Source: Arcobacter venerupis | GTDB taxonomy: Bacteria > Campylobacterota > Campylobacteria > Campylobacterales > Arcobacteraceae | Direction of reading: 5' to 3' | Assembly: GCF_013201665.1 (NCBI RefSeq) | Contig: NZ_CP053840.1 | Location: 930,001-994,000, forward strand | DNA length: 64,000 nt | Part shown: piece after piece, positions 44,503-55,553 of the stretch | Position numbering within the stretch: position 1 is the first letter of the stretch | Layout: each line of letters opens with the position of its first letter | Translations under genes and position numbers: made by a program | The notes under the pieces: model-generated | Databases searched by the model: none | What the model was told of the DNA's origin: nothing | The model's input: only the letters and a program-made list of their open reading frames with translations

Positions 44503-45651
44503 CTAAAAAGCATTATTTAAAATTTTTGTTAAAACATCTTTTGTGTAAATTTCTTTGATTCCAAAATATTGAGCATTTTCTAATAAGTTCTCTAATATCT
44601 TATCTGTATCACTTATTTGAATATTAAATTGACTAAGTTTTGTTGGAGTTCCCACTTTATTAAACCAAGCTTCAAGTGCATCAATTCCTTCCTCTGCTGT
44701 TTCAAGTTCAAAAATCTCTTTTGCAAATCTTTTAAATTGAGCTTCATTTTTACTTTTATACCATTTCATCCACGCTGGCATTACAACTGAAAGTCCTGCT
44801 CCATGAGGCACATTATATAAAGCAGAAAGTGAATGTTCTATCATATGATTTGGATATGAGAATTCTGATATTCCAACATATGTTAAACCATTTAATGCAT
44901 TTGTAGCTGCCCATGCAAACTCTGCCCTTGCATTATAATCATCTGGATTGTGTATTAAGATTTCTGTTGTTTGCATTACTGTTTTAATAATGGCTTCAAT
45001 TTGTCTATTAATATAAGTTGGGTGAATTGTTGCTGTAAAATATCCTTCAATTGAATGAGCAATAATATCAGCAGCTGAATATACTAAATAATCTTTAGAT
45101 ATTGTTTTCATTAATTCAGGATTGATAACTGAAACTTTTGGATAAAGTAATGGTGATTGAATTGCATATTTCTGTTTTGTATTTTCATTTGTTATAACTG
45201 CACCACAGTTCATTTCACTTCCAGTTGCTGCTAATGTTAAAATATCAAAAATTGGTAAAGCTTTTTGAACAAGAGCTTTTCCAATGAAAAAATCCCAAAC
45301 ATCGCCATCATATAAAGCACCCGCAGCAATAGCTTTAGAACTATCTAAAACAGAACCACCACCAACACTTAAAATTGCATCAACTTTTTCTTCTTTTGCA
45401 ATAGAAATTATTTCATAAACTTTTGAAAGAACAGGATTACTAACAATTCCACCAACAGCGATGAATTCAATATTATTTTCATTTAAACTTTTTTCAACAA
45501 TATCAAAAAGTCCATCTTTTTTAATTCTTTCGCTTCCATATGTAAGAAGTACTTTTTTGATATTACATTTTTTTAAATGTGTTCCTATTTCTTTTTCTTT
45601 ATCTTTTCCAAACTCAATTTTTGTTGGATTATAGAATGTAAAATTTTGCAT
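44503..45651 (-). CDS. Iron-containing alcohol/aldehyde dehydrogenase, YqhD-like
   Basis: A 382-residue group III alcohol dehydrogenase. The NADPH-binding GGGSVLDSSKAIA motif lies at about residue 96, and metal ligands are expected in YSAADIIAHSIEGY and in NHMIEHSLSALYNVPHGAGLS. E. coli YqhD reduces toxic short aldehydes with NADPH and is switched on by YqhC. A YqhC-like regulator gene is 3 kb away (48006-48917), and the operator-like motif at 45699-45735 sits upstream of this gene's TATAAT box. GGAG lies 7 bases before the ATG. The role in aldehyde detoxification is inferred from family and context. Confidence 0.88.
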   Translation of the reverse strand: MQNFTFYNPTKIEFGKDKEKEIGTHLKKCNIKKVLLTYGSERIKKDGLFDIVEKSLNENNIEFIAVGGIVSNPVLSKVYEIISIAKEEKVDAILSVGGGSVLDSSKAIAAGALYDGDVWDFFIGKALVQKALPIFDILTLAATGSEMNCGAVITNENTKQKYAIQSPLLYPKVSVINPELMKTISKDYLVYSAADIIAHSIEGYFTATIHPTYINRQIEAIIKTVMQTTEILIHNPDDYNARAEFAWAATNALNGLTYVGISEFSYPNHMIEHSLSALYNVPHGAGLSVVMPAWMKWYKSKNEAQFKRFAKEIFELETAEEGIDALEAWFNKVGTPTKLSQFNIQISDTDKILENLLENAQYFGIKEIYTKDVLTKILNNAF

Positions 45652-45673
45652 TTTAGCTCCTTTTATTTTTCTT

Positions 45674-45735
45674 ATTATAATTTGATTATGCGGTTTTACT
45701 ATAGAATAATATTCTAAATTAATTGCCTAATCCTA
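45674..45735 (-). promoter_or_regulatory. Operator-like motif and promoter of the YqhD-like dehydrogenase (site A)
   Basis: Read on the minus strand: TAGGATTAGGCAAT (45735-45722), 10 bases, TATTATTCTATAG (45711-45699), 19 bases, then TATAAT (45679-45674), which is 22 bases before the ATG. The same layout recurs at sites B, C and D. The second half overlaps the place where a -35 box would be, as in class II activation by AraC proteins. Confidence 0.7.
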
Positions 45736-45747
45736 CAAGATACAAAA

Positions 45748-46755
45748 TTATGATTTTTTAATAAATTTATTTTCTCTTTGCGAATATCTTGGGCCAACAT
45801 TTGGATATTTTTTTAATATAACTTCGATTTTTTCTAAATCAGATGAGCTTAAATTTAAATCGACAGCTTTGGCATTTGATTCTAAATAAGTTCTTTTTTT
45901 AGTTCCAGGAATTGGAATAATATTATCACTTTGAGCAATTACCCAAGCAATTGCTACTTGAGCTGTTGTTACATTTTTACTAAGTGCTAACTCCTCTAAT
46001 GCAGCAGTTAGTTTTTGATTATTTTGTAAATATTCTCCTTCATATCTTGGAAGATTTTTTCTAAAATCACTACTTGAAAGTGAATTAATGTCTAATTTAT
46101 TTGACATAAGTCCTCTTCCTAATGGTGCAAAAGGAACAAAAGTAATTCCTAACTCTTTTGTAAGAGGTAAGATCTCTTTTTCAACTTCTCTATATAGAAG
46201 TGAATATTCACTTTGAAGTGCTGAAATAGGGTGAATTGTGTGGGCTTTTTTTAATTCATCTGCTGTACATTCACTAAGTCCTAAATATTTTACTTTCCCC
46301 TCTTTAACTAATTGTGACATTGCCTCAATAGTCTCTTCTAAGGGAATATTTGGATCAATTCTATGTGCATAATATAAATCTATATAATCAGTTTTTAATC
46401 TTTTTAAACTATTTTCAACAGCCTCTTTTATATGTTTTACAGAACAATCAACATAAATACCACTAGCTATAAAAGAATCTCCTTTATTATCTGGCATTCT
46501 AAATCCAAATTTTGTAGCCATAAATATTTTGTCTCTATTATTTTTAAGCACTTGTGAAATTAACTTTTCATTTGTCCCATTTGCATAAATATCAGCACTA
46601 TCCCAAAAATTAATTCCAAGTTCAATTGAACGCTCAAGTGTTGCAATACTCTCTTTATCATCTTTATCCTCACCATAAGCAGCACTCATTCCCATACAAC
46701 CTAAACCAATTTTTGATAATTCTATATGTGTATTTGCAAATTTTCTATAATTCAT
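45748..46755 (-). CDS. Aldo/keto reductase
   Basis: A 335-residue TIM-barrel NADPH-dependent reductase of the AKR superfamily. The catalytic tetrad is visible: Asp52, Tyr57, Lys82 and His131. The protein starts LSKIGLGCMGMS and has the late IIPIPGTKKR phosphate-binding motif. AAAGGA precedes the ATG. It is on the same strand as the truncated SDR just upstream, whose promoter carries operator site B, so it is probably transcribed with it. An aldehyde detoxification role would match the YqhD-like gene, as dkgA and yqhD are co-regulated in E. coli. Confidence 0.9.
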   Translation of the reverse strand: MNYRKFANTHIELSKIGLGCMGMSAAYGEDKDDKESIATLERSIELGINFWDSADIYANGTNEKLISQVLKNNRDKIFMATKFGFRMPDNKGDSFIASGIYVDCSVKHIKEAVENSLKRLKTDYIDLYYAHRIDPNIPLEETIEAMSQLVKEGKVKYLGLSECTADELKKAHTIHPISALQSEYSLLYREVEKEILPLTKELGITFVPFAPLGRGLMSNKLDINSLSSSDFRKNLPRYEGEYLQNNQKLTAALEELALSKNVTTAQVAIAWVIAQSDNIIPIPGTKKRTYLESNAKAVDLNLSSSDLEKIEVILKKYPNVGPRYSQRENKFIKKS

Positions 46756-46839
46756 TTTCTATCCTTTTTATTATATTTTTTCTATGTAGCCCTAAACTTT
46801 TTCTTATTTCAATATTTACATTTTTAACTAATTTGTTGA

Positions 46840-47181
46840 CTAAATCAGCAACACTTCATCATATATTCCAATGGAACTAATAAAGATTAGTTTTTGTAAT
46901 CCTGTGTTTTTCATGGCTTTAATTATATTTTTTGCATGATTTTCTAAATCACCAGCTAAATTTGCATAAACTACATCTTTATTTTCCATTGCTTTTTCTA
47001 AATCACTTAAATTTAAGACATCTCCTTCTATAATGCAAATTTGTGAATTGTTATCTAAAAATCTTAAACGTTGAGCTTGCCTTAGGAAAAGAGTTAATTT
47101 TATATCTGCTTCTTCAAGGAAAAGTTTAATTACTTCTTTTGCAATTTGACCATTTGCTCCTAGAATTAATACATTTTTCAT
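46840..47181 (-). pseudogene. Truncated NAD(P)H-binding SDR (atypical, YwnB-like)
   Basis: The 113-residue frame starts normally with VLILGANGQIAKEVIKLFLE (NAD(P)-binding) and continues through FISSIGIYDEV, but then stops at codon 114. Full-length relatives have about 200-210 residues. The C-terminal half, including the substrate-binding part, is absent from the following 85 bases, so this looks like a 3' deletion remnant. It still has AAGGAAG upstream and operator site B in its promoter. It may now serve only as the first gene of the AKR transcript. Confidence 0.75.
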
Positions 47182-47211
47182 TTAATCTCTTCCTTTTTAT
47201 TTTATATAGTA

Positions 47212-47273
47212 ATTATATTTTTTTGGCAGAATTAGTAGATAGAATGATAGTTTATATTCATTGCCTAATTCTA
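47212..47273 (-). promoter_or_regulatory. Operator-like motif and promoter of the SDR-AKR unit (site B)
   Basis: Minus strand: TAGAATTAGGCAAT (47273-47260), 10 bases, TATCATTCTATCT (47249-47237), 19 bases, then TATAAT (47217-47212). Half-site order, the 10-base gap and the 19-base distance to the -10 box are identical to site A. It lies 31 bases before the start codon of the truncated SDR gene. Confidence 0.7.
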
Positions 47274-47349
47274 TGAATTAGTAAATTAGTTATATTTAAA
47301 CAAAAAGAGTTAAAATAAAAGTATAAATTTTAAAAAGAAAGTACATTAA

Positions 47350-47922
47350 ATGGCACAAAATGACAAATTAAAATGGGACAAAAAATATGAAAATACTCCA
47401 TTTTTACTCCAAAAAAGAGAAGCAAGTAAGAAACTAATAAATTTATTAGATAAAGTAAAAGGTAAAAAGGCTCTTGATGTGGCTTGTGGAGCTGGAAGAA
47501 ATTCTATTTATTTGGCATCAAAAGGTTTTGAAGTTCTTGCTATTGATATTTCACAAGTTGCATTAAATGAACTTGCTAAAAAGAATTTTAAAAATATAAC
47601 TTGTAAGTTAGTTGATTTAGATGATTATGAAATTCCTAAAAACTCTTATGACCTGATTATAATGACAAATTTTCTTGATAGAAATCTAATACCAAAATTA
47701 GCATCTGCACTCAAAATTGATGGAATTCTTTTTATAGAAACTTATATGCACCATATGTTAAATGAAAAACCAGCTTCAAATCCTGATTTCTTATTACAAA
47801 AAGATGAGTTAAAAACTTTTTTTGATGATAACTTTGAAATTTTAGATTATGATGAATTTGAAAATGAAGATTGTGAATTATTTAAAATGAAAAAACAATC
47901 AATAGAAGTAAAAAGAGTTTAA
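47350..47922 (+). CDS. Class I SAM-dependent methyltransferase (TehB-like)
   Basis: A small 190-residue methyltransferase. It opens WDKKYENTPFLLQKRE, then has the SAM motif KALDVACGAGRNSIYLASKG at about residues 38-57 and LAIDIS. The layout resembles TehB and related thiol- or tellurite-methyltransferases. It is transcribed away from the SDR-AKR unit. AAAGAAAG lies before the ATG. The substrate is unknown; detoxification would suit the neighbourhood. Confidence 0.82.
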   Translation: MAQNDKLKWDKKYENTPFLLQKREASKKLINLLDKVKGKKALDVACGAGRNSIYLASKGFEVLAIDISQVALNELAKKNFKNITCKLVDLDDYEIPKNSYDLIIMTNFLDRNLIPKLASALKIDGILFIETYMHHMLNEKPASNPDFLLQKDELKTFFDDNFEILDYDEFENEDCELFKMKKQSIEVKRV

Positions 47923-47980
47923 ATTATTATTTTATAAAAATTAGAAAATCTTAAAAATTCATATATGGATGAATATATTT

Positions 47981-48014
47981 ATTGCATAATTCTTTAAACT
48001 AAGAATTATGCAAT
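47981..48014. terminator. Large palindrome between convergent genes (terminator-like hairpin)
   Basis: A perfect 14-bp inverted repeat (47981-47994 and 48001-48014) with a 6-base loop. It covers the last codons of the araC-type gene and lies 59 bases after the methyltransferase stop. There is no T run on either strand, so termination is not certain. Each arm (AAGAATTATGCAAT) differs by one base from the first half of operator site D. Confidence 0.45.
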
Positions 48015-48917
48015 ATTTGCTTTTAGAAGACTTATATGTGCTTTTGGCGGTAATCCATACATTCTTGAGTATTCGCGACTAAATTGTGAAGGACTTTCAT
48101 AACCCACAAGAAAAGCTACTTGTGATGCATCAATATTTTGATTTAATAACATCTGTTTTGCTTCTTCAAGTCTAAGTTTTTTTTGGAATTGTATCGGTGT
48201 TAGTGTTGTTATTTTTTTAAAATTTGTATATAAAGATGATTCACTAATTGACATTTTTTTTGATAATTCTTTAATATTTAAATTTTCTGCAAAATTATTT
48301 CTAATTTCAGTGATTACTTTTACAATCTGACTTGATATTGAACCTTCCATAACATATTGTTTTAAAAAATCTCCACTATTTCCATTTAGTAAAACATATA
48401 AAATCTCTTTGATAATAAATGGTGATAAGAAATCAATATTTTTTTGAGGAGTATCTAAAAGTTTAATCAATCTTGAAATAGGGTTTAATAAATCCATACT
48501 CATATCATCAAAAAATAGACCTTTATCTGGTTTCTTTTTTGATTTAGCTTGTGTATCATTTAGCTCTTTTAATACTTCATAAATTTGTTCTAAACTAAAT
48601 GTAATTTTTAAAGCTAGATAAGGTTTTTCTTCAGAGGCTTCTTCAATTCTAACATTTGCTGGAACATGTGTTGAAGCTAATAAAAACTTTGATTCATTGT
48701 ATCCATACATATCATCACCAAAACCTACAGCTTTTGAACCTTGTAATGCAATACAAATTGATGGTTCAAAAATTACACTTACAAATTCAGATAATGTTGT
48801 TGTTGAATAAAGATGTAAAGAAGGTATTTTTGTATTAAGTAAGCCTTCTTTTTCATCAAATTTGTCTTTTAAAAAATTTATTAAATCTTTTCTGCTCAAA
48901 TCTAATAATTCATTCAT
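48006..48917 (-). CDS. AraC-family regulator, YqhC-like
   Basis: A 303-residue regulator. Residues about 30-185 are the AraC_N-type N-terminal domain (CIALQGSKAVGFGDDMYGY is diagnostic), and residues about 205-300 form two HTH motifs, the second being ASQVAFLVGYESPSQFSREY. E. coli YqhC, with the same architecture, senses aldehydes and activates yqhD and dkgA. Here a YqhD-like dehydrogenase and an aldo/keto reductase lie in the same cluster. Operator-like site C precedes the gene, suggesting autoregulation. GGAG lies upstream of the ATG. Confidence 0.88.
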   Translation of the reverse strand: MNELLDLSRKDLINFLKDKFDEKEGLLNTKIPSLHLYSTTTLSEFVSVIFEPSICIALQGSKAVGFGDDMYGYNESKFLLASTHVPANVRIEEASEEKPYLALKITFSLEQIYEVLKELNDTQAKSKKKPDKGLFFDDMSMDLLNPISRLIKLLDTPQKNIDFLSPFIIKEILYVLLNGNSGDFLKQYVMEGSISSQIVKVITEIRNNFAENLNIKELSKKMSISESSLYTNFKKITTLTPIQFQKKLRLEEAKQMLLNQNIDASQVAFLVGYESPSQFSREYSRMYGLPPKAHISLLKANIA

Positions 48918-48943
48918 AAAAAAACTCCTTTTATAAATAAAAG

Positions 48944-49004
48944 ATTATACTATATATAACAAATTTTCCCTATAACAATCTTCCATAATTATTGCCTGAT
49001 TCTA
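48944..49004 (-). promoter_or_regulatory. Operator-like motif and promoter of the AraC-type gene (site C)
   Basis: Minus strand: TAGAATCAGGCAAT (49004-48991), 10 bases, GATTGTTATAGGG (48980-48968), 18 bases, then TATAAT (48949-48944). The first half matches sites A and B at 13 of 14 or 12 of 14 positions. The second half is weaker. A weaker site at the regulator's own promoter is common in autoregulation. Confidence 0.6.
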
Positions 49005-49061
49005 CATTGAGCTTTGTTTTTTTAGTAGTTCTTCTATATTATTTTATTTAACTTTTATTTA

Positions 49062-49643
49062 TTAATAAATTGTGCTTAATTTTAAACAATAAAATAAATA
49101 TTTAGTATTTCTAATATAAATATTTCTATCTTTAAAAGCCTTTGCTGTTAAGATATTTCCTTCAATAGTGCTAAGTATAAATAATGATAACTCTTTTGTA
49201 TCTTTTGAAGAGAGTTCATTATTTTCTACAGCTTTAATGATTATGTTTTCAATAATATTTCTTAATCCATCATACTGTTTGTTTAACAGTATTTCAAATT
49301 CTTTATCATGATTTGACATCTCTTGAATTAGATTTGCTAAAGGACAACCTCTTTGAGATATTAAATCATATGATTCTATCAACATTTTCTCAAAATTTTC
49401 TAAATATGGAGCATTTCCATTTACTATTGCTTCATATTTTTGTCCAAAGATTTCTCTACTTTTTATTTCAACAGCTTCTAGTACCATCTCTTTTTTATTT
49501 TTAAAATAGTGGTATAAAGAACCTTTATTAAGTTCTGCTTTTTCTAAGATTTTTAATACTGAAGCCCCTTGATAACCATAGGTATAAACTTCATCAAATG
49601 TAATCTCTAATAATAAATCTTTTGTATCTTTTTTTGTTTTCAT
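49062..49643 (-). CDS. TetR-family repressor, NemR-like
   Basis: A 193-residue regulator with an N-terminal HTH (ASVLKILEKAELNKGSLYHYF, about residues 27-47) and a C-terminal ligand domain containing GCPLANLIQEMSNHD with Cys100. The position and setting of this cysteine match TetR proteins of the nem-operon type, which use it to sense electrophiles. It is divergent from the fabF remnant, SDR and RND pump genes, and three palindromes fill the space between. It probably represses both sides. The redox role of Cys100 is inferred. Confidence 0.85.
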   Translation of the reverse strand: MKTKKDTKDLLLEITFDEVYTYGYQGASVLKILEKAELNKGSLYHYFKNKKEMVLEAVEIKSREIFGQKYEAIVNGNAPYLENFEKMLIESYDLISQRGCPLANLIQEMSNHDKEFEILLNKQYDGLRNIIENIIIKAVENNELSSKDTKELSLFILSTIEGNILTAKAFKDRNIYIRNTKYLFYCLKLSTIY

Positions 49644-49659
49644 TGTTTACCTCTAAAGA

Positions 49660-49745
49660 ATTATATCAAAAAATTGACCTTAGAGTCAAAATATCTTGAC
49701 TTCAAGGTCAAATATTGTTATAATTTTTTTTGACTTCAAGGTCAA
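49660..49745. promoter_or_regulatory. Divergent promoter with three TetR-type palindromes
   Basis: Three copies of a 16-bp palindrome: TTGACCTTAGAGTCAA (49674-49689), TTGACTTCAAGGTCAA (49696-49711) and TTGACTTCAAGGTCAA (49730-49745). The middle copy provides TTGACT as a -35 box, then 17 bases, then TATAAT (49719-49724) towards the efflux genes. In the opposite direction the first copy gives TTGACT (49689-49684), 18 bases, then TATAAT (49665-49660) towards tetR. A repressor bound here would block both promoters. The -35 boxes are much better than the usual Campylobacterota promoters, which rarely have them. Confidence 0.85.
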
Positions 49746-49770
49746 ATGATAATTTTAATCAAAGGATTAG

Positions 49771-50144
49771 TATGAAAAGAGTTGTAATAACTGGAATGGA
49801 TATGATTACTTCACTTGGAAAAGATATGAACAGCTCTTTTTCAAATATTATAAGAGGTGAAATTGAAATTACAAAAATATCAAATTTTGATGCATCACAA
49901 CTTCCTGTTTAAACAGCAGGTGAAATAAAAGATTTTGACCCTAAAGATTATATTGATTTTGGAGTAGTAAGTGCTAGTGCAAAAAGCTGTAAAAATGGCA
50001 AAAAATCAAGATATCCAAAATGGTTGTGATTTAGACTATGTTCCAAATATAGCAAGACAAGACAAAATTTTCTATGCCATGAATAACTCTTTTGGTTTTG
50101 GTGGTACAAATGGAACAATAATATTTAAAAATATCCGAGGCTAA
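49771..50144 (+). pseudogene. Decayed fabF-like (beta-ketoacyl-ACP synthase II) remnant
   Basis: Starting at ATG 49771 (AAAGGAT upstream) the frame reads KRVVITGMDMITSLGKDMNS, a FabF N-terminus, up to a nonsense codon at 49910-49912. The reading resumes in frame with TAGEIKDFDPKDYIDF, then shifts near 49985 and continues as [15 protein letters not shown] and [15 protein letters not shown], the FabF C-terminus, ending at 50144. About 290 internal residues, including the catalytic Cys and two His, are missing. So there is one stop, one frameshift and a large deletion. It is the first gene after the TetR-controlled promoter. Confidence 0.88.
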
Positions 50145-50170
50145 GAATGAATTTAATAAAAAGGAAAAAT

Positions 50171-50920
50171 ATGAAAACAAATAATAAAAACACAATTTTA
50201 ATTACAGGAGGAGCAAGTGGTATTGGTTATGAATTTGCGAAACAACTTTGTGAAACAAATACCGTAATTATCACAGGACGAAATAAACAAAAGTTAGAAA
50301 AAGCAAAAGAAGAACTAAAAAATATTCATATTTTTGAATGTGATATGTCAAGTGCTAAAGATATAAAAGCCTTATATGAAATTATTTCATATGAATTCCC
50401 AGAACTTAATATTTTAATCAATAATGCAGGTATTATGAAAAAAATAGACTTGCAAAAAGAGTCAAATTATGAAATTCTTACAGAAGAGATTACAACAAAT
50501 TTAAATGGTACTATTTTTATGAGTACACTATTTTTACCACTTCTTAAAAAGCAAAAACAAGCTTCTATAATAAATATAACATCTGCATTAGGTTTTGTAC
50601 CATTAGCAGCTAGTCCAATTTATTGTGCATCAAAAGCAGCTTTACAATCATTTACAAAATCATTACGAATACAGTTGAAAAATACAAATATTAATGTTTA
50701 TGACATAGCTCCATCTGTAACAAAAACAGCAATCACAGATCAATTTAGTAATGAAGAACTTAAGAAAATGAAAATAATGACAACTACAACACTTGTGAAT
50801 AGTTCACTAAAAGAGATTAATAAAGGTACAAAAGATATTGGAATAGGTGAAACAAATGCATTAAAAATGTTAAATCGTATTTCTCCAAGTTTCGCTCTTA
50901 ATATGATTAATAAAGTTTAA
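50171..50920 (+). CDS. Short-chain dehydrogenase/reductase (DltE-like)
   Basis: A classical SDR of 249 aa. TGGASGIGYEFA is the cofactor motif near residue 13, INNAGIM is the NNAG element, and YCASK holds the catalytic Tyr and Lys. The first Met of the open frame is at 50147, but I use 50171: AAGGAA lies 4 bases before it and the cofactor motif then sits at the usual distance. It lies between the fabF remnant and the RND genes in the TetR-controlled unit. Substrate unknown. Confidence 0.85.
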   Translation: MKTNNKNTILITGGASGIGYEFAKQLCETNTVIITGRNKQKLEKAKEELKNIHIFECDMSSAKDIKALYEIISYEFPELNILINNAGIMKKIDLQKESNYEILTEEITTNLNGTIFMSTLFLPLLKKQKQASIINITSALGFVPLAASPIYCASKAALQSFTKSLRIQLKNTNINVYDIAPSVTKTAITDQFSNEELKKMKIMTTTTLVNSSLKEINKGTKDIGIGETNALKMLNRISPSFALNMINKV

Positions 50921-50943
50921 TAAAAAAGTATAGGAAAAACAAA

Positions 50944-52023
50944 ATGCATAAAAATAAATATCTTTTTTTAATATCACTATTATCCGTAACTTTTCTTTTA
51001 GTTGGCTGTGAATCACAAGTGAAAGATCCTCGTTTAGAAGATAAAGTTGTAAGTGTAATTAGTATAAAAAAAGCAAATAATCAAGAGCAAAGTTTTACAG
51101 GTATTGTAACTGCAAAAGTTCAAAGTAATTTAGGATTTAGGGTATCAGGTAAAATTATCAATCGTTTTGTAGATAATGGTCAAGAGGTTAAAAAAGGACA
51201 AGCTTTAATGAAAATTGATAATAATGACCTTAATTTATCAATAGCAGCAAAAGATAACGCTGTAAAAGCTTTAGAAGCACGATTTATATTAGCCAATACA
51301 GATGAAAAAAGATATAAAAAATTATTAACTGTTAATGCAATCTCTCAACAAGCTTATGATCAAGCAAAATCAGCAGCAGATTCAATATATGCAGAACTAA
51401 ATGCTGCAAAAGCACAAGTTCAAGTTGCAAGAAATGAAGCTTTATATTCAATATTGTATGCAGATTCAAATGGAACAATAGTTGAAGTTCTTGGTGAGGC
51501 TGGACAAGTTGTAAATGCTGGACAAACAGTTATTAAATTAGCGCACAGTGGCTCAAGGGAAGCAGCCGTGGATTTACCTGAAACCGTACGTCCTGAATTA
51601 AACTCAAAAGCACAAGCTAAGCTTTTTGGTAATGATGTTATAAGTAGTGTTATTTTACGTCAATTATCTGATTCAGCAGATGCATCTACAAGAACATATG
51701 AAGCACGTTATATTTTAAGTGGTGATATGCAAAAAGCTCCAATAGGCGCAACAGTAACAGTTTATTTATCAACTAATGAAAGTAGTAGTGATATAGAAGT
51801 TCCATTGGGTGCAATAACGAATGAAGGAAAAGGTGCAGGAGTATGGATGTATGATTCATCTACTTCTACAATTTCATTTAAAAAAGTTGAAATTACTTCA
51901 TTAACTTCTGAAACTGCTATTATAAAAAGTGGTCTTGGACTAAATGACAAAATTGTAGCTTTAGGTGCTCACTATTTACATGAGGGACAAAAAGTGAGAT
52001 TGAGTGACAGGGTAATAGAATGA
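50944..52023 (+). CDS. RND efflux periplasmic adaptor (membrane fusion lipoprotein)
   Basis: A 359-residue HlyD/AcrA-type adaptor. A lipobox LLVGC places the lipidated Cys at residue 22. The barrel-sandwich halves are GFRVSGKIINRFVDNGQEVK and SNGTIVEVLGEAGQVVNAGQ, separated by a helical hairpin (about 100-165). It links the inner-membrane pump to an outer-membrane channel. It overlaps the pump gene by 4 bases. No TolC-type gene is in the window, so a channel encoded elsewhere is expected. Confidence 0.92.
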   Translation: MHKNKYLFLISLLSVTFLLVGCESQVKDPRLEDKVVSVISIKKANNQEQSFTGIVTAKVQSNLGFRVSGKIINRFVDNGQEVKKGQALMKIDNNDLNLSIAAKDNAVKALEARFILANTDEKRYKKLLTVNAISQQAYDQAKSAADSIYAELNAAKAQVQVARNEALYSILYADSNGTIVEVLGEAGQVVNAGQTVIKLAHSGSREAAVDLPETVRPELNSKAQAKLFGNDVISSVILRQLSDSADASTRTYEARYILSGDMQKAPIGATVTVYLSTNESSSDIEVPLGAITNEGKGAGVWMYDSSTSTISFKKVEITSLTSETAIIKSGLGLNDKIVALGAHYLHEGQKVRLSDRVIE

Positions 52024-55000
52024 AAGGGTTTAATCTTTCAGCACTTGCTGTAAAAGAAAGGGCTATTACACTTTTTCTTCTGGTTTCTTTTGCTTTTGCA
52101 GGTATTTATGCTTTTTCAAAATTAGGTCGTGCAGAAGATCCCTCTTTTACGATTAAAATTATGACAGTAACTTCAGTTTGGCCAGGAGCAACTGTTGAAG
52201 AGATGCAAAACTTAGTTGCAGAACCACTTGAAAAAAGGTTGCAAGAACTAAGATGGTATGACCATGTTGAGACTTTAATGCGTCCTGGTTATACAAATAT
52301 GACACTTTTTTTCAAAGATACTATGCCTCCAAAAGAAGTTGCAGAACAGTTTTATGAAGCTCGTAAAAAATTAGGAGATGAGGCTAAAAGTTTGCCCTCA
52401 GGTGTAGTTGGCCCTTTTATTAATGATGAATATTCAGATGTAACTTTTACTTTATACTCTTTAAAATCTTCTGATTTACCCCAAAGAAAACTTGCTCGTG
52501 AAGCTGAAGTTTTACGTCAACAACTCTTACATGTTGATGGGGTTAAAAAAGTACATATTTATGGTGAACAAGCTGAAAAAATCTTTGTTGAATTCTCTTA
52601 TGCCAAATTAGCAAATTTAGGAATTAATCCAAAAGCTATTTTTAGTGCTATTCAAAATCAAAATAGTATGACTGCTTCTGGTTCGATTAATACCAAAGGA
52701 GCTGAAGTTTTCATTAGACTAGACTCATCTTATGATGATTTGGAAAAAATTCGCAATACCGCCATTGTTGCCAATGGACATACTTTTAAACTTTCAGATA
52801 TTGCTCAAGTCAAACGGGGTTATGAAGATCCTGCTAGTTATCAAATTCATAATGAGGGAGAACCTACACTTATTTTAGGTGTTGTTATGAAAGAGGGATT
52901 TAATGGTCTTACCCTTGGAGAAAATTTACAAAATGAAGAAAATAAAATTATTTCACAACTTCCTACTGGTATAAGTTTTACAAAAATAACTGACCAAGGT
53001 GTTGTAATTAAAGACTCTATTGATGAATTTTTAATGAAATTTGTTGTGGCTCTTTGTGTTGTTATGCTTGTAAGCCTAATTAGTATGGGATGGAGAGTTG
53101 GCATTGTTGTAGCTGCTGCTGTTCCACTTACTTTGGCAATTGTTTTTATTATTATGATTATGACAGATAGAGTATTAGATCGTGTGACCTTGGGTTCTTT
53201 AATTATTGGATTAGGGCTTTTAGTTGATGATGCAATTATTGCTATTGAGATGATGGTTGTAAAACTTGAAGAGGGCTTAGATAAAATACAAGCAGCATCT
53301 TATGCTTGGACACATGCAGCAGCTCCTATGTTATCAGGAACACTTGTAACTATTATTGGTTTTATTCCAATTGGTTTTGCCCATTCAACAGCGGGAGAAT
53401 ATGCTGGTAATATTTTTTGGATAGTTGGTTTTGCTCTTCTTGTTTCTTGGGTAGTTGCTGTTGTATTTACACCTTATTTAGGAGTAAAACTACTTCCTAA
53501 TATTAAACCAATAGAAGGTGGACATGAAGCTATTTATAATACTCCAAATTATAAAAGATTACGAAAAGCAGTTACTTGGGGTGTTAATCATAAAAAATCA
53601 GTTATTTTTACTGTAATTGGATTGTTTTTAGTATCTGGTATTGGAATGGGTATGTTAAAACAACAATTTTTCCCTACATCAGATAGATCTGAAGTATTAG
53701 CAGATATTCAAATGCCAAAAGGAAGTAGTATTGAAGCTACAAAAGCAGTTGTTACTGAAGTTGAAACTTGGCTTTTAAAACAACCAGAAGCCAAAAATGT
53801 TACTTCATATATAGGTGCTGGAGCTACAAGATTTTTCTTTTCATATAATCCAGAATTGCCAGATCCATCATTTGCAAAAATCATTATTAAAACAGCAAAT
53901 TCACAAGATAGAGATAATTTAAAATGGAGATTTAGAGAAGAAGTTGTAAAGGGTTTAGGCTCAAGTGCACATGTTAGAGTTTCTCAATTAGTATTTGGAC
54001 CTTTCCCTTTATATCCTGTGGATTTTCGTGTTATGGGTGAAAATACAGATAAACTAAGAGAAATTGCTAATGAAATAAAAGCTGTTATGACAGATAATCC
54101 AAACACAAGAGAAATCAATCAAGACTGGGGAGAACTTACTCCAGAAGTTCATTTTGCGTTGGATCAATCTCGTTTAAGATTGATTGGTTTAACACCACAA
54201 GATGTATCTGAACAGCTACAGTTTTTACTTAAAGGTATTCCTCTTACTCAAGTGCGAGAAGATATTAGAACAGTTGATATAGTTGCACGAAGTAATGGAA
54301 CTGATCGTTTAAGTCCTGATAAACTTACAAATTTAACATTGACAACAAATGAAGGTAAAGCTATTCCTCTTTCTCAATTAGGAGAAATTAAAGTTACAGA
54401 TGAAGATTCATTTTTACGCAGAAGAGATAGAACACCAACAATTAGTGTTAGATGTGACATTGCTGAAGGTTTACAACCACCTCAAGTTTCTAATGAGATT
54501 TATCAAGCAATTAAGCCAATAATAGCAAAATTACCACAAGGTTATCGTATTGAAGTTGGAGGAAATATTGAAGATTCAGAGAAAGCAAATAAAGCACTTT
54601 TACCAATTTTCCCTATTATGATAATTTTAACACTTTTTGTTATTGTAGTTCAAGTAAGATCTCTTTCAATGATGACAATGGTATTTTTAACAGCACCTCT
54701 TGGTTTAATTGGGGCAGTTCCTATTTTACTTTTGTTTAATCAACCATTTGGATTTAATGCAATTTTAGGACTTATTGGACTCTCTGGGATTTTGATGAGG
54801 AACACACTTATTTTAATTGTACAAATCAAAGATAATGAAAAAAGAGGGCATCATTCATATGATGCAATAATTGAAGCAACAGTTCAAAGAGCAAGACCAG
54901 TTATTTTAACAGCACTTGCTGCTGCATTGGCTTTCATCCCTTTAACTCATTCTGTATTTTGGGGTTCTATGGCATATACACTTATTGGTGGAACAATAGG

Positions 55001-55088
55001 TGGAACAGCACTAATTTTACTATTTTTACCAGCACTATATGCTGCTTGGTTTAAAATAAAACCAGTTGAAACTCGTATACTTAGCTAA
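52020..55088 (+). CDS. RND efflux transporter permease
   Basis: A 1022-residue proton-driven pump with 12 membrane helices and two large periplasmic loops. Asp403 and Asp404 in GLLVDDAIIAIEMM match the proton-relay aspartates of AcrB helix 4. In helix 10 the position of the AcrB lysine appears to be Arg927 (GILMRNTLILIV), which is less usual. The family is closer to the shorter AcrB-like pumps with a single adaptor. The unit is probably controlled by the TetR protein. Substrate unknown. Confidence 0.93.
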   Translation: MKGFNLSALAVKERAITLFLLVSFAFAGIYAFSKLGRAEDPSFTIKIMTVTSVWPGATVEEMQNLVAEPLEKRLQELRWYDHVETLMRPGYTNMTLFFKDTMPPKEVAEQFYEARKKLGDEAKSLPSGVVGPFINDEYSDVTFTLYSLKSSDLPQRKLAREAEVLRQQLLHVDGVKKVHIYGEQAEKIFVEFSYAKLANLGINPKAIFSAIQNQNSMTASGSINTKGAEVFIRLDSSYDDLEKIRNTAIVANGHTFKLSDIAQVKRGYEDPASYQIHNEGEPTLILGVVMKEGFNGLTLGENLQNEENKIISQLPTGISFTKITDQGVVIKDSIDEFLMKFVVALCVVMLVSLISMGWRVGIVVAAAVPLTLAIVFIIMIMTDRVLDRVTLGSLIIGLGLLVDDAIIAIEMMVVKLEEGLDKIQAASYAWTHAAAPMLSGTLVTIIGFIPIGFAHSTAGEYAGNIFWIVGFALLVSWVVAVVFTPYLGVKLLPNIKPIEGGHEAIYNTPNYKRLRKAVTWGVNHKKSVIFTVIGLFLVSGIGMGMLKQQFFPTSDRSEVLADIQMPKGSSIEATKAVVTEVETWLLKQPEAKNVTSYIGAGATRFFFSYNPELPDPSFAKIIIKTANSQDRDNLKWRFREEVVKGLGSSAHVRVSQLVFGPFPLYPVDFRVMGENTDKLREIANEIKAVMTDNPNTREINQDWGELTPEVHFALDQSRLRLIGLTPQDVSEQLQFLLKGIPLTQVREDIRTVDIVARSNGTDRLSPDKLTNLTLTTNEGKAIPLSQLGEIKVTDEDSFLRRRDRTPTISVRCDIAEGLQPPQVSNEIYQAIKPIIAKLPQGYRIEVGGNIEDSEKANKALLPIFPIMIILTLFVIVVQVRSLSMMTMVFLTAPLGLIGAVPILLLFNQPFGFNAILGLIGLSGILMRNTLILIVQIKDNEKRGHHSYDAIIEATVQRARPVILTALAAALAFIPLTHSVFWGSMAYTLIGGTIGGTALILLFLPALYAAWFKIKPVETRILS

Positions 55089-55194: not shown

Positions 55195-55553
55195 TGGTCA
55201 AAAATGAAAAATAGTTTATGCAATTGCAAGTGGTATTGGAATTCCTATTGTTGCCATGATGATTTCAAAACATCATCAAAAGAAACAACTTTATATTGCC
55301 CTTTGTATGTTTTTATTTATCAACTTTAGTTCCAAATACAGCAACTATATTAGTAGGATTAAATAGTTCGATCGTTCAAATTGGATTTGCAGTTGGAGCT
55401 GCTATTGGTGGAATTGTTATTAGTATCTTCTCTATTAATGCAATTATTCCTATTGGAATAAAAAGTGTTATTGTAGAAATAATAATCTTTTCACTTTTAT
55501 TAAAAATTGAAAGAGAAAAAATTAAAAATAGTAAAATTTATTTAATACCTTAA
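55195..55553 (+). pseudogene. Decayed MFS transporter (AraJ-like efflux permease)
   Basis: A promoter with operator site D is followed by a damaged gene. An open stretch in one frame (from about 55212) reads YAIASGIGIPIVAMMISKHH, a helix-2/loop motif of MFS efflux proteins. A frameshift near 55325 joins it to another frame that reads SIVQIGFAVGAAIGGIVI and a lysine-rich tail ending at 55553, typical of the last two helices. The middle eight or nine helices are missing and no intact start exists. About 360 of an expected 1150 bases remain. Confidence 0.8.

Follow-up and report, generated by a model that had tools for sequence, protein, structure and literature searches.

The window analysed here, a stretch of 64,000 nucleotides of the Arcobacter venerupis genome, carries a TetR-type regulator gene and, divergent from it, an operon with RND efflux genes. 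The 128-bp gap between tetR on the minus strand and the next plus-strand start codon at 49772 (49644–49771) raises the question of what controls the two transcription units and which signal would relieve that control. Three copies of one palindrome lie in this gap, and their layout and recurrence in other genomes make it very probable that they are operators of the adjacent TetR_C_13 protein, repressing both promoters. The elements concerned are the following:

49062–49643, minus strand: tetR, coding for a 193-aa TetR_C_13 (NemR/LmrA/AcuR-type) regulator with Cys100 and Lys168
49649–49654, minus strand: Shine-Dalgarno sequence of tetR, AGAGGT; the transcript is predicted, from the position of the -10, to start about here
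49665–49660, minus strand: -10 of the tetR promoter, TATAAT with extended TG, 18-nt spacer from TTGACT (49689–49684)
49674–49689, minus strand: operator O1, reading TTGACTCTAAGGTCAA on that strand and containing the tetR -35 (49689–49684)
49696–49711, plus strand: operator O2, TTGACTTCAAGGTCAA, containing the operon -35 (49696–49701)
49719–49724, plus strand: -10 of the operon promoter, TATAAT with extended TG, 17-nt spacer from TTGACT (49696–49701)
49730–49745, plus strand: operator O3, TTGACTTCAAGGTCAA, predicted to lie over the putative transcription start of the operon

All three sites are gapped palindromes of the form TTGAC-N6-GTCAA, with centres 22 and 34 bp apart, and this pattern is found nowhere else in the window, even at one mismatch. 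An earlier note on this DNA had described three 16-bp palindromes filling the gap between tetR and the efflux genes; the three sites are in place, but each is symmetric at only 12 of its 16 positions (the 5-bp arms are perfect, the core is N6), and they do not fill that gap, since a decayed fabF (49772–50144), on which the note is silent, and an SDR gene separate them from the RND genes. O1, read on the minus strand, differs from O2 and O3 at two core bases, which shows it to be inverted relative to them, so that nearly the same oriented operator faces each -35. The TTGACT boxes reported within two of the sites, with spacers of 17 and 18 to TATAAT in opposite directions, agree with our coordinates (O2 on the plus strand, O1 on the minus strand), whereas the promoters once called perfect are only near-consensus, at 11/12 with TTGACT instead of TTGACA; they are the best two among 13 promoter-like matches in 49000–50500. 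Because the -35 boxes are just 6 bp apart (49690–49695), polymerases should be unable to occupy both promoters at once, and O3, starting 5 nt past the plus-strand -10, should cover the start site. The tetR transcript, as predicted, would begin nearly at its Shine-Dalgarno sequence, with a leader of about 11 nt (49649–49665, minus strand).

A single palindrome of this type is uninformative: lone TTGAC-N6-GTCAA sites occur at background level, with 10 in the genome against 11 for a reversed control pattern. Clustering is another matter, as none of 20,000 dinucleotide-shuffled versions of 49644–49772 (129 bp) contained two or more sites, and 5 contained one. Of the ten sites in the genome (3.2 Mb), seven are clustered at three places, and at each of these a paralogous regulator lies alongside (the two outside the window share 41%, at 1.80 Mb, and 37%, at 0.43 Mb, identity with the window regulator); every cluster has a pair spaced 34–35 bp around a -10. 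Such a tandem pair, with sites 33–36 bp apart bracketing a -10, recurs in the family (36 of 104 genomes) and in the phylum sample (34 of 397), and the reversed pattern gave no tandem pair in any of them. The 36 family genomes with a pair all carry a close homologue of the regulator, which is present in 52 of the 104 (P about 1e-15, kinship being ignored), and a homologous TetR gene lies within 300 bp of 59 of the 64 distinct pairs. Three of the tetR-less pairs (L115:3125, L166:2000 and L173:2000) stand immediately upstream of a tautomerase, AhpD-like or EamA transporter gene (the AhpD-like label comes from inspection of the sequence, Pfam giving no match); a fourth (L052:2468) is found 20 bp beyond an EamA gene and has an unclassified gene downstream, and the fifth has no recognised target. 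These three gene classes are also found beside the regulator elsewhere, and the first four tetR-less operators are likely to be members of a regulon regulated in trans. With 59 of 64 pairs near a TetR homologue and most of the others at the usual target classes, the operator marks a regulon, and its consensus would let target genes be predicted genome-wide, including at sites with no adjacent regulator.

The geometry of the pairs points in the same direction. In 43 of 49 pairs a -10 (TATAAT, at least 5/6) follows the operator -35 at a distance of 16–19 nt towards the target, compared with 9.7% when spacers are shuffled and 3/50 in the reverse direction. The second operator starts 4–5 nt past the -10, and it keeps this distance while the operator spacing shifts (16 to 20) along with the -35/-10 spacer (16 to 19). 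Position 39 opens the recognition helix; of the 61 regulators that have sites, 59 carry Asn or His there, and of the 22 that have none, 14 carry Lys. Some of the sites counted here were assigned with one mismatch allowed. Three homologues sharing the helix-3 Asn have no exact adjacent site. Among operator-less homologues, a search for alternative palindromes returned only a TAGAC-N6-GTCTA pair, downstream of tetR and 45 bp apart, at the distant homologue L131, which may represent a related yet different operator code. Taken together, the shuffles, the recurrence, the reversed control and the adjacency to TetR genes argue that the sites are conserved TetR operators, and the window, having a 33–36-bp pair that brackets a -10 beside a TetR_C_13 gene, falls within the tandem-operator group of Campylobacterales as we define it here. 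No published description of an operator of the TTGAC-N6-GTCAA type in Arcobacter or Sulfurospirillum was found in the open-access papers searched. The comparison yields an operator consensus and a promoter geometry that can be put to the test for a regulator family widespread among Arcobacter-like bacteria and their relatives.

From the computed sites, their non-randomness, their geometry around the -10 and their co-occurrence with the regulator family and its targets, we infer binding, repression and induction along the following lines. The region 49644–49771 would act as a divergent promoter-operator, in which the product of tetR (49062–49643) binds O1, O2 and O3 as dimers. O1 would cover the -35 of tetR, O2 that of the operon of fabF stub, SDR and RND genes, and O3 the start site of this operon, so that RNA polymerase would be shut out of both promoters and one repressor is predicted to silence its own gene and the neighbouring efflux operon alike; the operator half-site TTGAC would serve at the same time as the -35 box. 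Steric repression of this kind is the best reading of the operator layout. A signal altering the C-terminal domain, for which a thiol-reactive compound at Cys100 is one candidate, might then free the protein and turn on the SDR and RND efflux genes. TetR repression had been predicted before from the locus itself, and the overlap of the operators with both divergent promoters, together with the comparative support from about 500 genomes, speaks for it.

The nature of the signal depends on the protein. The tetR product combines a TetR_N helix-turn-helix with an all-helical C-terminal domain (PF00440 at 38.4 bits, cut-off 24; PF16925 at 41.9 bits, cut-off 27) and, at the level of sequence, has a palindromic operator over its own and its target's promoter, as expected of the TetR family. 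Its structural model (pLDDT 86) matches TetR structures at Z 16–20; reduced NemR (4YZE) scores Z 20.2, which is within 1 of the top matches 2G7S, PA2196 and 3BRU, so NemR is not singled out by the fold alone. In a sequence alignment Cys100 falls on Cys106 and Lys168 on Lys175 of NemR, and the positions of NemR Cys21 and Cys116 are occupied by V19 and S110 (the NemR sequence used matches PMC7464077 in the positions of its Cys residues and was also cross-checked over residues 8–148). The TetR_C_13 domain, the match to 4YZE and the two aligned residue pairs bear out the earlier description of a NemR-like regulator with Cys100. Among 83 homologues, Cys100 is present in all and Lys168 in 79, and the invariance of Cys100 extends to clades that lack these operators, which makes it a family signature. 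The idea that Cys100 is diagnostic of electrophile sensing was rejected on this ground, and its conservation does not separate sensors from non-sensors.

Two kinds of signal have to be weighed, and for each the chance seems below even. A lipophilic, fatty-acid-like or drug-like compound may bind in the C-terminal pocket, as in AcrR, QacR or LmrA, with Cys100 having a structural role, and we regard this as falling just short of an even chance. TetR_C_13 includes proteins of the LmrA/YxaF type, TetR regulators classically control RND and MFS genes, and the ancestral-type operon of Aliarcobacter sp. STC_124 (locus L016), which has a fabF-type synthase, MFS, ADH, SDR and RND genes, would fit an acyl or amphiphilic substrate; the sequence, however, predicts no ligand, and the invariance of Gly99-Cys100 in 83 proteins whose targets differ suggests that these residues have a common function. 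A thiol sensor of the NemR/AltR type, in which reactive chlorine, thiosulfinates, quinones or aldehydes would modify Cys100 (perhaps together with Lys168) and all three operators would be released, is a tenable idea with the balance tilted somewhat against it. It would build on the alignment and conservation of the two residues, since in NemR a Cys106-Lys175 bond is reported to form under HOCl (PMC7464077) and in AltR, a NemR homologue of Pantoea, Cys100 is essential for thiosulfinate sensing (PMC13178969), and the SDR, together with the Fe-ADH of the sister operon, belongs to redox detoxification types. Against it, the Gly-Cys motif is common to other TetR_C_13-like structures (3QBM, 3EUP and 3BRU), Cys21 and Cys116, which have been named for the electrophile response of NemR (PMC7464077), are absent, and neither a NemA-type FMN reductase nor the glyoxalase GloA was found among the seven Pfam-scanned neighbours in 44503–55088 (SDR, RND adaptor, RND pump, AraC, AKR, Fe-ADH and NAD-binding).

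It is improbable that one of the two paralogues (at 1.80 Mb and 0.43 Mb) is the main occupant of these operators inside the cell, in place of the adjacent regulator. The TTGAC-N6-GTCAA half-sites and the 34–35-bp spacing are common to all three systems, and with such a shared half-site some cross-binding could occur, but the cores are of the YYYRRR type in the window and AAATCG/CAATTT and TAATTA/TATGTA at the other two, and helix 3 reads SLYHYF in the window regulator versus SMYHFF. That fortuitous repeats and promoter-like strings arose by chance in AT-rich DNA, where single palindromes and 9/12 promoter matches do sit at chance level in the genome, is ruled out for practical purposes by the absence of the clustered arrangement from all 20,000 shuffles and of reversed pairs from about 500 genomes.

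The tree of the 83 regulators contains an UP clade of 22 members, window included, in which the operators lie between tetR and a divergent target, and a DN group of 37 members, in which they lie downstream of tetR and ahead of a co-directional target. In both, the tetR-proximal site is the target -35 and the second site lies on the target start, O2 and O3 being the equivalents in the window and O1 an extra site. The 20 other UP-clade members (the loci of this clade among L024, L060-L079 and L136-L138) all have at most two sites, and their tetR genes all show the extended -10 TGNTANANT followed by N5-6 and ATG, with no Shine-Dalgarno sequence. As this agrees with the criterion for leaderless mRNA published for the phylum, gnTAnaAT-N5-9-ATG (PMC3847290), these genes are apparently leaderless. 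Within the clade, O1 as third operator and, for tetR, a -35 of TTGACT and a Shine-Dalgarno sequence are confined to the window and L016, hence O1 looks like a derived operator dedicated to tetR, and the triple site is best described as a putative lineage-specific elaboration; some DN-group members likewise have triple sites, arranged differently. A more far-reaching proposal would be that Cys100/Lys168 thiol-switch repressors form one class throughout the order Campylobacterales and share one operator code (TTGAC as the -35, the second site on the start point), to which the window lineage added a third operator, a tetR leader and a -35 for tetR itself; a tetR that apparently lacked a leader would in this way have gained an operator dedicated to its -35. 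As a whole, we consider this rather unlikely.

The history of the operon can be traced in part from the genes around the switch:

49772–50144, plus strand: decayed fabF-type (KAS II) gene, with a stop codon at 49910–49912 and internal deletions relative to the intact L016 homologue
50171–50920, plus strand: SDR oxidoreductase, start codon picked by homology (mechanical ORF from 50147)
50944–52023, plus strand: RND periplasmic adaptor
52020–55088, plus strand: RND (AcrB-family) efflux pump
44503–45651, minus strand: Fe-ADH, from the Pfam scan
45748–46755, minus strand: AKR, from the Pfam scan
48006–48917: AraC_N regulator gene, between Fe-ADH/AKR and tetR

The fabF stub measures 373 bp, with a stop at codon 47 and, relative to L016, deletions at short repeats; the first operon gene being broken, selection on the operon may be partly relaxed. 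L016, the sole close named relative (TetR 94%), has the order fabF, MFS, Fe-ADH, SDR, RND adaptor, with the locus ending in the first part of the RND pump, and the MFS and Fe-ADH genes are missing between fabF stub and SDR in the window. In the compared stretch (49067–52369), DNA identity is 93% over 890 bp from tetR through the operators to the fabF start and 97% in the last fabF piece, against 74% in the SDR-adaptor part (protein 73% for SDR and 63% for the adaptor), and the operators are identical although the regions differ elsewhere. At the thresholds used, SDR and adaptor were found only in the window genome and that of L016 among the 104 family genomes, and the adaptor turned up in none of the other 396 genomes of the phylum sample. 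This rarity and the uneven identity suggest a rare module of which a part was recombined or exchanged, and the regulatory region has been kept whole while the leading gene of its operon decayed and those behind it were exchanged or diverged. A mobile origin was considered and set aside, plasmid matches being limited to a 55-bp fabF piece and viral matches to none. Two apparent gene remnants lie nearby, a truncated NAD(P)H-binding protein (46840–47181, minus strand) and a fragment that by eye resembles the end of an MFS transporter (55296–55553, plus strand).

As to the aldehyde-detoxification cluster that the earlier note placed next to the switch, Fe-ADH and AKR genes do occur in the window, but they stand apart on the minus strand with the AraC_N gene intervening. 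Their orientation does not support membership of the TetR regulon, and they belong more likely to the AraC_N regulator. The Fe-ADH inside the L016 TetR operon is 68% identical to that of the window. The arrangement of AraC_N, AKR and Fe-ADH genes (44503–48917) somewhat resembles yqhC-yqhD-dkgA of E. coli (PMC5297802), and a second AraC_N paralogue (51%) is present at 2.35 Mb of the genome.

Several known systems come close to the window. E. coli NemR (nemR-nemA-gloA) has a TetR_C_13-type fold, the equivalents of Cys106 and Lys175 and, as predicted for the window, autorepression via an inverted repeat at its own promoter, but identity is about 19%, Cys21 and Cys116 have no counterpart, and NemR controls the co-transcribed nemA/gloA, whereas the window has three TTGAC half-site operators and a divergent RND/SDR target. 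Pantoea AltR (PMC13178969) has in common with the window a decisive Cys100 and, across its own promoter, an inverted repeat whose core is N6; unlike it, AltR is enterobacterial, recognises the box CAATCTAC-N6-GTAGATTG and serves the alt thiosulfinate genes. The best NCBIfam match is AcuR (NF051457), at 65.8 bits far under the cut-off of 247, and the C-terminal resemblance to the TetR_C_13 proteins LmrA/YxaF passes the Pfam cut-off; in both AcuR and LmrA-YxaF the likeness lies in the protein domain and the targets differ from those of the window. RutR belongs to another regulator subfamily with another function, and its model matches the window regulator only in the N-terminal domain, far under cut-off; its box TTGACCANNTGGTCAA presumably has the same TTGAC/GTCAA arms and 16-bp length as the window operators. 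Beside these systems, the window's operator-promoter region can be regarded, with good support from the comparison, as a predicted but genuine divergent TetR switch, of which the operator-over-promoter design is itself familiar.
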